18,216 nucleotides of DNA, taken from positions 1 through 18,216 of the forward strand of contig JADGGM010000003.1 in NCBI GenBank assembly GCA_019689955.1, in the 5' to 3' direction. This document shows, piece after piece, positions 3,965-10,926 of the stretch; position 1 is the stretch's first letter, and every line of letters starts with the position of its first letter. The DNA is from Gemmatimonadaceae bacterium. Lineage in GTDB: Bacteria > Gemmatimonadota > Gemmatimonadetes > Gemmatimonadales > Gemmatimonadaceae. Both the position numbers and the translations under genes were made by a program. The notes below the pieces were generated by a model that saw nothing but the letters and a program-made list of their open reading frames with translations, made no database searches and was not told where the DNA came from.

Positions 3965-5440
3965 GTGCTGCACTTCTACACCACCGTCGCCCTGCTGGGA
4001 CTCGTGATCGTCGTGGCATCGCTCCTCTCCGGCGCGCTCGAACGGAGCGGGCTCCCGCTCGTGGCGGCGTTCCTGGGGCTCGGGGCCTTGCTGGGACCGG
4101 CTGGGCTCGGCGTGGCCGACTTCGATCTCGGCTCGCCGACGCTGCAGGTCCTCGCGATCCTCGGGCTCACGCTGGTGCTGTTCAGCGATGCGGTGACGGT
4201 GGACACGAAGGAGGTCCGTACCCGCTTCGCGCTCGTGTGGCGCATGCTCGGCCCCGGCACGCTCCTCCCGGCGATCCTCATCGGCATCGCCGCGCGCGTA
4301 CTGCTGCACCTCTCCGTCCCCGCGGCCGCGATCCTCGGCGCCGCGCTCGCGTCGACCGACCCGGTGCTCCTGCGCACCGTGCTGCGCTCGCGGGAGCTCC
4401 CGGAGAGCGCGCGGGTGGCGCTCCGGCTGGAGAGCGGGATGAACGACGTCGTCCTCCTGCCGATCGTGGTGCTGAGCATGCTGCTCGTGCGCCCCGAGGG
4501 AGCGCCGGCGCCGCGCGAGGTGGCGCGCACGGTGGTCGGGCTCTTCCTGCTCGGGCCCGTGCTCGGTGGGCTGATCGGGTGGCTCGGGATCACGGTGCTC
4601 GTCCACGTGCGCGAGCGCTTCGGCGTGCGGCGCGACTACGAGTCGCTGTACGCACTGGGGCTCGCGTTCAGCGCGTTCGCGGCGGCGGAGGCGGTAGACG
4701 GGAGCGGGTTCCTCGCCGCGTTCGCGGCCGGGCTCGTGGTCAGCGCGCAGGATGTGGAGCTCTGCGACTGCTTCCTCGAGTACGGCGAGGCGACGGCGGA
4801 GATGCTCCTCCTGCTCACCTTCGTCGCGTTCGGGACGTCGCTCATCTGGACGGGGTTTCTGGTGGCCGATGGGCCGACGCTCCTGTTCGCGTTGATCGCG
4901 CTGGTCGCGCGCACGGTGGTGCTCTACCCGATGCTCGGCGCCGCGGGGGTGCGCGGCCGCGACCGCCGTCTCACGGCGTTCTTCGGGCCGCGCGGCCTGA
5001 GCTCGCTCCTCCTCGTGCTCCTCCCGGTGTTCGCGGGGATCCCGGGGGCGGACGCGCTGTTCCGGGTGACGTGCCTGGTGGCGCTGCTCTCGCTCGTGGT
5101 GCACGGGGGGCTGATCGGTCTCTTCCTCCGCGGGAACGCGCCGCCGCGCGAGCGGGTCCGCCTCACGCGTCCGGCGCACCGCGAGCTCCCCACGGCGCCG
5201 CCCGAGGCGACGCCGGCACCGCGTGACGATGCGTCGGCGCGCATCACGGTGGACGAGGTGCAGGAGCTGCGGCGGCGCGGAGAGCCGGTGATCATCGTCG
5301 ATGCGCGCGCGGAGCGCAGCTATGCGCAGGACGACCGGCGAGCGGTCGGCGCGGTCCGCCTCCCGCCCGACGATCCCGTCCGCACGGCGACGGCGCTCCG
5401 GCTCTCGCAGCACGCGACGCTGGTCGTCTACTGTGCCTGA
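3965..5440 (+). CDS. CPA1/NhaP-type sodium(potassium)/proton antiporter with C-terminal rhodanese domain, ended by an in-frame TGA
   Basis: The 491-residue product up to the TGA has about 12 hydrophobic segments (residues 8-390) forming an inner-membrane cation/proton exchanger. CPA1 signatures are present: ALASTDPVLL with TDPV at 131-134, and LESGMNDVVLLP with the ion-binding Asn160-Asp161 pair. The helix-rich AFSAFAAAEAVDGSGFLAAF block (about 234-253) and GPRGLSS (341-347) also fit. A Pro-rich linker (about 401-424) leads to a rhodanese domain starting ITVDEVQELRRRGEPVIIVDAR and reaching VVYC, whose Cys490 aligns with the rhodanese active-site Cys. Translation then meets TGA at codon 492, although the same frame continues with rhodanese sequence to 5572. 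If read through, the protein would be 535 residues. If not, the rhodanese lacks its C-terminal third. The antiporter part is complete. Confidence 0.9.
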   Translation: MLHFYTTVALLGLVIVVASLLSGALERSGLPLVAAFLGLGALLGPAGLGVADFDLGSPTLQVLAILGLTLVLFSDAVTVDTKEVRTRFALVWRMLGPGTLLPAILIGIAARVLLHLSVPAAAILGAALASTDPVLLRTVLRSRELPESARVALRLESGMNDVVLLPIVVLSMLLVRPEGAPAPREVARTVVGLFLLGPVLGGLIGWLGITVLVHVRERFGVRRDYESLYALGLAFSAFAAAEAVDGSGFLAAFAAGLVVSAQDVELCDCFLEYGEATAEMLLLLTFVAFGTSLIWTGFLVADGPTLLFALIALVARTVVLYPMLGAAGVRGRDRRLTAFFGPRGLSSLLLVLLPVFAGIPGADALFRVTCLVALLSLVVHGGLIGLFLRGNAPPRERVRLTRPAHRELPTAPPEATPAPRDDASARITVDEVQELRRRGEPVIIVDARAERSYAQDDRRAVGAVRLPPDDPVRTATALRLSQHATLVVYCA

Positions 5441-5572
5441 CACGATGAAGCGACGAGCGCCCGGGTGGCGCGCGATCTCCGACGAGCCGGGTGGTCCAAG
5501 GCGCGCGCGCTGCTCGGCGGCTGGGCGGCGTGGCAGGCGGCGGGGCTTCCGGTGGAGCGGCGGGCGGCGTGA
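5438..5572 (+). pseudogene. In-frame TGA and open continuation of the rhodanese domain (nonsense mutation or selenocysteine codon)
   Basis: After TGA (5438-5440) the same frame runs 44 codons to a second TGA at 5570-5572. It encodes HDEATSARVARDLRRAGW, then a stretch reading SKARALLGGWAAWQAAG and an ending LPVERRAA. These are the expected last helices and strand of a rhodanese domain, including the LLGGW-AWQAAGLPVE ending. The active-site loop in this antiporter-rhodanese group often reads YC-x-CP-x-E-x-TSA; here it reads YCA-TGA-H-D-E-A-T-S-A. The TGA therefore replaces the second Cys, one base from TGC, and the Pro is a His. No frameshift is involved. The alternatives are a young nonsense mutation, a base-call error or selenocysteine insertion. 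Confidence 0.75.
5457..5471 (+). other. Small stem-loop downstream of the in-frame TGA, possible bacterial SECIS
   Basis: GCGCC (5457-5461) and GGCGC (5467-5471) form a 5-bp stem with a CGGGT loop, starting 16 nt after the TGA. Bacterial selenocysteine elements are short hairpins just 3' of UGA, with a G among the first two loop bases and the loop about 16-37 nt from the UGA; this hairpin meets those loose criteria. At this GC content such hairpins are common by chance, so it is weak support on its own. Confidence 0.25.
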
Positions 5573-7885: not shown

Positions 7886-9298
7886 CTACACGGCGTCGAT
7901 CACGCTCGTGAAGCTGAAGTCGTGCGCCATGAGCGGCGGCACGATCGCCGGCGCACCGGGGCTGAACACGGGGACCGGGACACCGAGCTGCTCCACGCTG
8001 TTCAGCACGAAGAGCGGCGACTCGGTGAAGCGGAGGTTCTTGACGGCCTTCGAGATCGTTCCGTTCTCGATGAGCCAGAGCCCATCGCGCGTGATGCCGG
8101 TCGACAGCAAGCTGTCGGAGTCGAGCACGGTGATGTTGGAGAGCCGCGTGACCAGGAGCCCGCGCTTCGTCGCCCTGATCATGTCCTCGATCGACGCCGT
8201 GCCGCCGCTCATGCGATAGCTCTCGCTGTTGAGGGTGCCGAACGGATCGTTGCGGGTACGCAGCGCGTAGTCGCGCTCATCAGCGAGCGCCGTGAGGATG
8301 CCGTGGTCGATCCACGTGACTGGTCGGAACGGCTCATCGTTCGCCCCGAACGGCACGACGCCGAGCTGCGGGTCCGAGGGATCGTGGCTGATCGTGACGC
8401 GCTCGTCGACGACCTTCCGGCCAAGCTTCGAGCGGTGGAGGCGGAGCGACGCGTCGTAGCCGGCACCAAAGGGCCCGTTTCCCCCGCTCTCGGGGAGCCA
8501 TCGCGCGATCCGCGTGCCCGGCCTGAGGATCAGCGACACGAGATCGTGCACCGCTTGCGGCTCGAGGATCACCGTGTAGCGCCCCGGCTCGAGCGCGACG
8601 GGGTTGCGCGAGGCGAGGCACTTCTCGAGCGCGCGCTGGGCCAGCGCCTGCGGTGCGATCGCGGCGACGTCGTACGCGCTCGCGCCGGCCCACCCGGACC
8701 CGGTCCCCTTGGGATCGCGTACCGTCATGGAGCACTGCGCGTGCGTGCTCGCCGCGTAGAGGGGCGGGTCCTCCGCCGGGACGTGCGCGATGGTTTCCGC
8801 GCGGACGGCGAGATAGCCGGCGGAGAGCATCCCGGCGGCTTCGGCGGGATCGATGATCGCGCGCGCGGCAGCGCCGCGTTCGGGAGCGGGCTGGGCGTAC
8901 GTCGCATCGCTCCAGATCGCGGTCCTGGCATACTCGTACGGCGGGTGCGGCGTCTCGTAGTCGCGAGGGCGTGGGGGCATCCGGCGGGCCGCGCGCTCGG
9001 CGGCCTGCACGGCCGCGGCGAGCGAGATGTCGTCGAGCTGGTTGGTGCTCGCGAAGCCCTCGGCGCCGCGAATGGCGCGCCGAATCGTCACCGTGATGTC
9101 GCGCCGGTCTCCCGCGAGGCTCACGCGATTCCGTGCCCAACGAAGCTCCCCGGCCCACCAACTCTGGATCCACGTCTCGGTCGTCCCGCCCCCCGACGCC
9201 GCGCTCGTGATGCGCCGCGCGATGCGCTCGCACTGCTCCCGCGGCAGAATGCGGTCGCGATCGTCGAGACGGAACAGCGCCCTGACGGAGGTGCTCAC
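7886..9298 (-). CDS. PmbA/TldE-like subunit of a TldD-TldE protein pair
   Basis: This 470-residue protein belongs to the TldD/PmbA family: an N-terminal domain with TETWIQSWWAGELRWARNRVSL and a C-terminal beta-rich domain beginning near PGRYTVILEPQAVHDLVS. It continues through PVTWIDHGILTALADERDYA and the typical RLSNITVLDSDSLLS ending. PmbA/TldE subunits pair with TldD to form a peptidase that clips small or modified peptides (microcin B17 leader, CcdA in E. coli) and normally lack the metal motif themselves, as here. The GTG start at 9298 overlaps the TldD stop as GTGA, indicating translational coupling and equal production. No export signal is present, although its partner has a Tat signal. 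The longer open frame to 9556 lies inside TldD and is rejected. Confidence 0.9.
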   Translation of the reverse strand: MSTSVRALFRLDDRDRILPREQCERIARRITSAASGGGTTETWIQSWWAGELRWARNRVSLAGDRRDITVTIRRAIRGAEGFASTNQLDDISLAAAVQAAERAARRMPPRPRDYETPHPPYEYARTAIWSDATYAQPAPERGAAARAIIDPAEAAGMLSAGYLAVRAETIAHVPAEDPPLYAASTHAQCSMTVRDPKGTGSGWAGASAYDVAAIAPQALAQRALEKCLASRNPVALEPGRYTVILEPQAVHDLVSLILRPGTRIARWLPESGGNGPFGAGYDASLRLHRSKLGRKVVDERVTISHDPSDPQLGVVPFGANDEPFRPVTWIDHGILTALADERDYALRTRNDPFGTLNSESYRMSGGTASIEDMIRATKRGLLVTRLSNITVLDSDSLLSTGITRDGLWLIENGTISKAVKNLRFTESPLFVLNSVEQLGVPVPVFSPGAPAIVPPLMAHDFSFTSVIDAV

Positions 9299-10893
9299 GC
9301 TTTCCTCGTCGGATCGATGATCGTGAGCGACTCGAACAGCGCGGGGGGCGCGGTAACGCTCGCGAAGGTTTCCTGCTCGGGCTCTCCTTTCGTGGCGCTC
9401 ATCCCGAAGCGATGCGCGCTCGCCGGCCCGCCGATGGTGCGCAGCGCCTTCCAGAGCTCCGGCGCGCGCAGGAGCACGCCGGCGGGGGCGATCCGCGCGA
9501 CGCGCTTCCCCCCCTTCACCTCGTACGCACGCCCCTGAGCAAAGCCGTTGAGGCACTGGAAGTCCATCCCGAGCTCCGCACCCTTGATCGCGACCCCGCG
9601 CCCGAGCTCGGCGACGAGCCCGTCGAAGTCGAGCGCGCGCGCGCCGGGAGCCATGACGAGATTGGGGGCGTGCTGCAGCGGCGCGAACACCGCCGATGGC
9701 GCCGCGGCGCAGCCGTGCGAGCGGACCGGCGCGCCGTGCGCGGCGTAGTACGGCGCGAGCCAGGTGGCGCTCTCGCGCGTGGTCTGGTAGTCCATGAGGA
9801 TGCCGTTCTTCACGAGGGTGATCTCGTCGGGCGCGACGCCATCGTCATCCCACGCAACCGTCGCGCACCCGCCGGGCTCGGAGCGGTTCGCGGTGATCGT
9901 GAGGCCCGGTGCGCCGACGCGATGGTGGCCGAGCATCGCGAGGGGATCGTTCAGGTAGCTCGTGCCGCCGGCGTTGGCCTCGTAGCCCATCGCGCGGTCC
10001 AGCTCCGTCGCGCGGCCGATGGTCTGCGCGACGAGCCGCGCGACGCTCCGGGCATCGAGCACGGTCGGATAGCGCCCCACGTCCACGGGTTTGACAGGGA
10101 GCGCCATGTCCTCCTCGATCTCCTCGACCAATCGCCGGATCGCCTCGTAGAGCGGTTGCGCGCGGTAGAGCTCCCACCCCGCGCCCTCCGGGCCGAGCCC
10201 TTGGAGGCGCCCTGCACCGCGCCGGTCGCCGCGCTCGACGCCGAGCTCGAAGACGCCGGTCGTGCGATACGTGCGTTGCGTGCAGTACGTCCCCGCGGTC
10301 GAGCCGAACGCTTTCTCCTGGGTGAACAGCTGGCAGAAGTTCTTGCCGGGGGAGACGCCGGGGATCCGCGTCGCATGGAGGGACAGTCCCGCGAGGAGGT
10401 CGACGATCTCGTTCGGCGGCACGTCGAACGGATCGATGGCGACGGGCATCACCCAGTGCCCGCGTCCGACGACCGGCGCCGATGCGAGCTCGGCGATGCG
10501 CGGCTTGCCGAGCGCGTTGGTCGTTGCCTGAGCCACGGCCTCGTTCCCCAGGCGGACCATCTCATCGGCGCTCCACACGGGCCCCGCGGCGAACCCCCAG
10601 TACCCGCGCACCAGCGCGCGCACGCCGACGTCCAGCGCCTCCGCATCGAGCACCGCGCCGGTGGCGTCGATCGTCCGAGTGCGGTCGTGCGTGAGGCGGA
10701 CATCGGCATAGGCCGCGCCCGCGGCGCGCGCGGCGTCGAGCGCGCGGGCAACGAGCGCCTCGAGACGCGGGTCGTCGATGGGGGGCACCGGCTCCGGGGT
10801 CCGGCCCAGCCGAACGAGGAGCGGCCGCGGCACCGCGGCGAACGCCGCAGCGGTGACGCCGGCCTTCACGAAGTCACGACGCGAGATCGTCAT
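9295..10893 (-). CDS. TldD-like protein with Tat signal and lost HExxxH motif
   Basis: This 532-residue TldD/PmbA-family protein has a strong twin-arginine signal, SRRDFVKAGVTAAAFAAVP (residues 4-22). Family blocks are clear: AYADVRLTHDRTRTI (61-75), GVRALVRGYWGFAA (90-103), KNFCQLFTQEKAFGSTAGTY (184-203), ATELDRAMGYEANAGGTSYL (295-314) and ITLVKNGILMDYQTTRES. TldD is normally the metallopeptidase subunit with H-E-x3-H before the TELD segment. Here that position reads A289-Q290-T-I-G-R294, confirmed from the DNA, so both zinc-binding His residues and the catalytic Glu are gone. It is therefore probably not a classical metallopeptidase. ATG at 10893 is preferred to a TTG at 10905; neither has a clear ribosome binding site. 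It overlaps the PmbA-like gene by 4 bp. Confidence 0.9.
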   Translation of the reverse strand: MTISRRDFVKAGVTAAAFAAVPRPLLVRLGRTPEPVPPIDDPRLEALVARALDAARAAGAAYADVRLTHDRTRTIDATGAVLDAEALDVGVRALVRGYWGFAAGPVWSADEMVRLGNEAVAQATTNALGKPRIAELASAPVVGRGHWVMPVAIDPFDVPPNEIVDLLAGLSLHATRIPGVSPGKNFCQLFTQEKAFGSTAGTYCTQRTYRTTGVFELGVERGDRRGAGRLQGLGPEGAGWELYRAQPLYEAIRRLVEEIEEDMALPVKPVDVGRYPTVLDARSVARLVAQTIGRATELDRAMGYEANAGGTSYLNDPLAMLGHHRVGAPGLTITANRSEPGGCATVAWDDDGVAPDEITLVKNGILMDYQTTRESATWLAPYYAAHGAPVRSHGCAAAPSAVFAPLQHAPNLVMAPGARALDFDGLVAELGRGVAIKGAELGMDFQCLNGFAQGRAYEVKGGKRVARIAPAGVLLRAPELWKALRTIGGPASAHRFGMSATKGEPEQETFASVTAPPALFESLTIIDPTRKA

Positions 10894-10926
10894 GGAGCAC
10901 GACAATGAGTGTGAGGCGGCGCGGCG

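Follow-up and report, generated by a model that had tools for sequence, protein, structure and literature searches.

An antiporter–rhodanese fusion gene with an in-frame UGA that very probably encodes a selenoprotein

Selenoproteins that carry a rhodanese domain have been catalogued previously. In the portion available to us, a 2026 article on prokaryotic selenoproteins (PMC13188914) presents its Table 1 as the most comprehensive inventory to date; the table has 119 families or subfamilies, among them five rhodanese forms, one of the CxU kind ("Rhodanese-like domain-containing protein form 3") and one described as DsbD fusion-like. An antiporter fusion is absent from Table 1 in that portion, and the words antiporter and exchanger are absent from the main text of the article. 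No such protein appears in the portions available to us of PMC9312934, PMC2398784, PMC12013277, PMC5029168, PMC11097638 and PMC4210487. A title and abstract search of the open-access literature, a scope that leaves out subscription papers and preprints, returned no paper describing an antiporter–rhodanese selenoprotein.

The model NF041203 (rhodanese_LYCAU) describes a rhodanese domain with a C-A-U loop, and the protein studied here (the window protein) covers positions 18–126 of its 126 with an E value of 5e-25. The model contains no antiporter, whereas the window protein is an antiporter fusion; its score of 87.6 bits (90.1 for the domain alone) falls short of the curated cut-off of 115, and this criterion places it outside NF041203. 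TsoB, the rhodanese/DsbD fusion-like selenoprotein of NF045694, is likewise a rhodanese selenoprotein fused to another domain, but it has two selenocysteines (Sec) in a UxxxxU motif and a different partner, and the window protein reaches 14.9 bits against a cut-off of 805. We take the DsbD-like partner of TsoB to be a membrane protein. On the antiporter side, the solved NhaP-type CPA1 antiporters 4cza and 4cz8 ("Na+/H+ antiporter, putative") share the membrane domain and its TDP and ND motifs, and their chains of 420–422 residues are about as long as the antiporter part of the window protein alone. Alr3790, the closest solved rhodanese in sequence, lacks a Cys at the column of Cys490 in its alignment. 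In the KefC and KefB potassium efflux antiporters, a cytosolic redox-responsive domain gates the antiporter; both the antiporter family and the regulatory domain differ from those of the window protein, and the likeness is an analogy only.

The window, the whole stretch of 18,216 nucleotides analysed here, corresponds to contig C253; the draft genome to which it belongs totals 3.76 Mb, is split into 751 contigs and is 88.7% complete. The features of the gene are as follows.

3965..5572, + strand: whole predicted coding sequence, with a GTG start at 3965, the putative Sec codon at 5438 and a terminal TGA; 535 residues, Sec492
4013..5131, + strand: membrane domain of a CPA1/NhaP-type cation:proton antiporter (Pfam PF00999, 132 bits against a cut-off of 26.2)
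4355..4363, + strand: TDP motif, residues 131–133, aligned with the TDP of 4cza
4442..4447, + strand: ND motif, residues 160–161, invariant in 18 aligned proteins and aligned with the ND of 4cza
5246..5542, + strand: rhodanese domain (PF00581, 36.7 bits against a gathering cut-off of 22.2), complete only when the TGA at 5438 is read as a residue
5432..5434, + strand: Cys490, the first Cys of the loop, invariant in 18 aligned proteins
5438..5440, + strand: UGA, probably read as Sec492, second member of a C-x-U pair; 70 TGA and 9 Cys in 79 loci
5457..5471, + strand: SECIS-like hairpin GCGCC-CGGGT-GGCGC, 15 bases with a five-pair stem, 16 nt past the UGA
5570..5572, + strand: terminal stop TGA

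The original prediction, of a TGA directly after YCA in a frame that stays intact to its own stop, was borne out. TAC TGT GCC (Y-C-A) precedes the TGA at 5438-5440, and 43 sense codons lie between it and the TGA at 5570-5572. Taken alone, an open frame of 43 codons in GC-rich DNA is weak evidence, but the frame and the codon are conserved across 70 named loci, which is beyond chance. Because the terminal stop is also TGA, recoding of UGA in this gene would be context-dependent. The putative start at GTG 3965 was picked by alignment with relatives, and further in-frame starts lie upstream. Without read-through, Pfam sees the Na_H_Exchanger domain alone, and read-through adds PF00581. A search of the gene's own genome recovered the 5246..5542 stretch with one TGA inside it, as well as rhodanese matches on two further contigs, which have no internal stop.

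The antiporter part aligns with the solved antiporter 4cza/4cz8 at an E value of 2e-7. In 18 aligned proteins, T131 and D132 are invariant and P133 is nearly so; the ND motif we take to be the CPA1-type ion site and the mark of a CPA1 exchanger. The best antiporter equivalog, NF003716 (PRK05326.1-3, potassium/proton antiporter), gave 142.5 bits against a curated cut-off of 355, so the transported ion is not nameable from that model. In the rhodanese part, Cys490 presumably occupies the position of the catalytic Cys of rhodaneses, and the second residue, Sec492 or Cys492, makes the loop pair C-x-U or C-x-C.

We searched for relatives in 198 genomes, the gene's own included. At least 152 had some match, many of these being other antiporters or rhodaneses. 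Among the matches listed, the fusion extends to the Sec site in at least 23 of the 198 genomes; all 23 have TGA there, and no listed match shows Cys at the site. The pattern in which relatives have TGC and decay is confined to this one strain was therefore not what we observed. Some of the 23 are partial: G002 begins inside the antiporter, two pieces make up G003, and the match in G182 diverges about 17 codons past the TGA. Outside the 23 stand G110, which is cut by a contig end, and G143, which has the rhodanese part with TGA at the site and a TAG ahead of it. Two further loci also lie outside: in G064 (L063) the fusion is in two pieces with the middle missing and TGA at the site, and in G066 (L064) the frame diverges inside the rhodanese part, ahead of the site; the fusion gene may have been lost or mis-assembled there. 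In G120, G139, G175 and G196, members of one genus (g38), a second antiporter gene adjoins the fusion on the opposite strand (contigs G120:C44, G139:C64, G175:C105 and G196:C174).

Among named GTDB genomes, 275 places encode a relative, and the best 80 of these 275 were kept; all but one (L114) reach the site. At the Sec codon, these 79 have 70 TGA and 9 Cys codons (6 TGC, 3 TGT), and TAA, TAG or any other residue occurs in 0 of 79. A tree of 79 rows, which omits L119 on account of its short frame, requires at least six changes between Sec and Cys. Among its rows 11 phylum labels occur, 10 of which include TGA rows, and three rows are unlabelled; the labels are taken from submitters' titles, and two that fall among Chloroflexota rows, L098 (Gracilibacteria) and L131 (Scytonema), may be mis-assigned. 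The Cys forms include CACPAE, CACPNDET and CACPDEATS, so the YCxCP loop expected for this group does occur. The original prediction had also read the His after the TGA as a Pro-to-His change. This residue need not reflect a mutation, because family members differ at this position (V, H, L, M, K, T, Q, P and others). Past the hairpin, the differences at codon positions 1, 2 and 3 are 0.34, 0.32 and 0.61, the pattern of protein constraint.

Two database searches, with the best 120 proteins of each kept, gave 191 distinct proteins among the matches listed. The ending of a protein is by itself silent on which stop codon follows, and the TGA was established on the DNA of the relatives and named loci. 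Of these closest listed proteins, 185 stop exactly after [YF]C[ADT], directly before the Sec codon, so the family goes unseen there as a selenoprotein. The source labels P0161, one of the remaining six, as partial; the other five are full-length with Cys at the site. P0001, from an ENA source, is 95% identical to the window protein, comes from a different contig and terminates at this codon as well. When the rhodanese part of a Cys form served as the query in a third search, 12 proteins were listed, with no additional Cys fusion among them: the query itself, eight antiporters ending in YCA or YCT (P0025 and seven new ones) and three other proteins. A plasmid search returned a single weak antiporter match, with 35.7% identity over 60% of the query.

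The genes for selenocysteine synthesis and insertion that the original prediction had named, selA, selB, selC and selD, are all present in the same genome. The scores were 553.9 bits for selA, 379.4 bits for selD and 295.1 bits, against a cut-off of 242.25, for the N-terminal part of selB, the rest of which is cut off by a contig end. The tRNA-Sec gene (selC, anticodon tca) begins 98 bases past the selD match on the same contig. On the minus strand of another contig of this genome (G000:C35:3401-4189) lies a formate-dehydrogenase-like frame with one in-frame TGA. It is possibly a second selenoprotein of the genome, and the Sec machinery may therefore serve another client.

We searched for selA in the genomes of 50 of the 79 loci, comprising all 9 with Cys and 41 with TGA; the omitted loci were 17 TGA loci of Gemmatimonadota, left out by choice, and 12 further TGA loci. 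selA scored above the cut-off in 35 of the 41 TGA genomes and in 2 of the 9 Cys genomes (Fisher p = 0.0005, with genomes treated as independent despite their kinship), and at E ≤0.001 the counts were 38 of 41 and 2 of 9. The six TGA genomes without selA over the cut-off comprise three with no match and three with a partial or weak one; most of the genomes are drafts. Among the 23 TGA relatives, no selA was found in G002 and G070, and G153 has a fragment only. Within the 198 genomes the link between the fusion and selA is marginal (21 of 23 versus 124 of 175, p = 0.044), because selA is common there. The named strains that carry the gene include Pyrinomonas methylaliphatogenes, Thermosporothrix hazakensis, Ktedonosporobacter rubrisoli and Dictyobacter aurantiacus, and these four have selA above the cut-off.

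The region just past the TGA was then compared across the loci. All five pairs of the hairpin form in 69 of the 70 TGA loci, whereas 4.52 would be expected if the same peptide were recoded synonymously following the codon use of each gene. The loop reads CGnG in 70 of 70. In its available portion, PMC1088965 gives a small apical loop containing G as a criterion for bacterial SECIS elements, and CGnG is such a loop. When the pairing partner was shifted by one to three columns, pairing dropped from 99.7% to 21–65%. In the 70 TGA loci, double-sided changes affect three of the five pairs in 11 cells (shuffled mean 0.8, with 0 of 500 shuffles as high); by weaker measures of covariation, the number of pairs changed on both sides was matched by 8 of 500 shuffles and the number of pair types by 290 of 500. 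The 23 related rows (22 fusions and G143) show 4 double-changed cells, again with 0 of 500 shuffles as high, and the weaker measures were matched by 46 and 483 of 500 shuffles, respectively.

Codon use in the same region shows a similar pattern. The third-position difference is 0.136 in codons +6 to +10, compared with 0.526 in codons +1 to +5 and 0.607 in codons +11 to +36, and the first two positions of the hairpin codons are also better conserved (0.038 and 0.116). The Ser at +6 is encoded by AGC in 67 of 71 rows and by AGT in the other 4, and the commonest Ser codon in these genes is TCG. The Cys loci serve as a weak control: 2 of 9 form the five pairs, and the peptides of the other 7 permitted the full stem in none of 2000 recodings each. 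Over the 45 nt that follow the codon, folding energy was not unusual against synonymous recoding (mean z of -0.49 for the 70 TGA loci and -0.34 for the 9 Cys loci), and Rfam gave no match. By our own reading, the minimum-energy fold of the single sequence contains the hairpin in 19 of 23 rows, the exceptions being G050, G153, G082 and G143. Further downstream, the Arg codon at +14 past the TGA (5480-5482 in the window and its counterparts in relatives) is AGA in 12 of 22 rows, and by eye this choice tracks a preceding CTG, not CTT.

With the machinery present, the TGA shared by relatives and Sec exchanged for Cys, the selenoprotein reading gained support. The gene very probably encodes a selenoprotein in which an NhaP-type antiporter is joined to a C-terminal rhodanese domain with the loop Cys490-Ala-Sec492, and in which Sec would be directed by SelB and the hairpin. 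A recent nonsense mutation, which would leave a truncated antiporter and a decaying rhodanese tail, is extremely unlikely: the frame does carry a TGA, and the fusion in G064 is present only as two pieces, but even that remnant keeps TGA at the site, 70 of the 79 named loci have TGA, and the tail shows protein constraint. A base-call or assembly error at 5440 and 5442 would fit a genome as fragmented as this draft; it is scarcely credible given that P0001, on its different contig, ends at the same codon and that TGA recurs in relatives and named loci. The original prediction had itself listed these two rivals, and we rejected both on the recurrence of TGA, P0001 and the constraint on the tail; in practice both are excluded. 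A conserved leaky stop, decoded by another tRNA to give a short and a long form without selenium, we regard as very unlikely. Failed Sec insertion could always yield a short product, but the exchange with Cys, the SECIS-like hairpin and the link with selA point to Sec. General reassignment of TGA was also rejected, since the gene itself ends in TGA, as do 32 of the 70 TGA genes (19 end in TAG, 16 in TAA, and 3 run off the locus).

Judged from these sequence comparisons, the Sec reading is all but certain, and the window protein is very probably a real, so far unlabelled selenoprotein and a new fusion variant of the known Sec-rhodanese (CxU) kind. It would add to the known selenoprotein architectures one that combines a Sec domain and an ion antiporter in a single chain, with TGA under 10 phylum labels. 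The genome's own SelA, SelD and selC would supply the Sec-tRNA, and SelB with its Sec-tRNA would bind the hairpin past the UGA, so that Sec is presumably inserted in the cell. Since the named strains carry the gene, Sec insertion and its effect on transport are directly testable in cultured isolates.

As to function, we suggest that the Cys/Sec pair either closes into a selenenyl-sulfide or accepts sulfane sulfur to give a persulfide state. Its change of state would then open or close the antiporter and make ion and pH balance follow the redox or reactive-sulfur state. This switch between a reduced and a selenenyl-sulfide or persulfide state that gates ion exchange is our best guess, which falls just short of an even chance. 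Somewhat more tentatively, the members may form a widespread, unlisted selenoprotein family in which a putatively cytosolic Sec-rhodanese senses redox state or reactive sulfur/selenium and thereby gates a cation:proton antiporter. If true, this would directly link selenium chemistry to ion and pH balance. The main rival, which concerns function only, is that the Sec-rhodanese does enzymatic work of its own, as a transferase for sulfur or selenium or as a peroxide reductase, and is attached to the antiporter without gating it; we consider this possible but rather doubtful. In its favor, stand-alone rhodaneses with the same YCA-TGA motif and stem occur in 7 relatives, and the solo model NF041203 is named rhodanese-related (seleno)protein. 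Against it, the two domains have stayed fused in 70 TGA and 9 Cys loci under 11 phylum labels, which suggests that the two parts work together but is not proof. From 32 loci the 63 nearest flanking frames were picked by a simple rule and 54 were scanned; no Pfam family occurs in more than 3 of these 54 frames (31 loci). With no neighbor family more frequent than that, the Sec domain probably has the antiporter itself as its partner.

The stand-alone rhodaneses (L054, L055, L056, L057, L058, L059 and L060) show, by eye, YCA-TGA and the GCGCC/GGCGC stem in 7 of 7. Six of them were scanned (all but L055) and gave 57–69 bits against the NF041203 cut-off of 115. They may represent a second unlabelled Sec-rhodanese group. 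Elsewhere in the window, on the minus strand at 7886-10905, two adjoining frames have PmbA/TldD metallopeptidase domains, and we take them to resemble TldD/TldE pairs.
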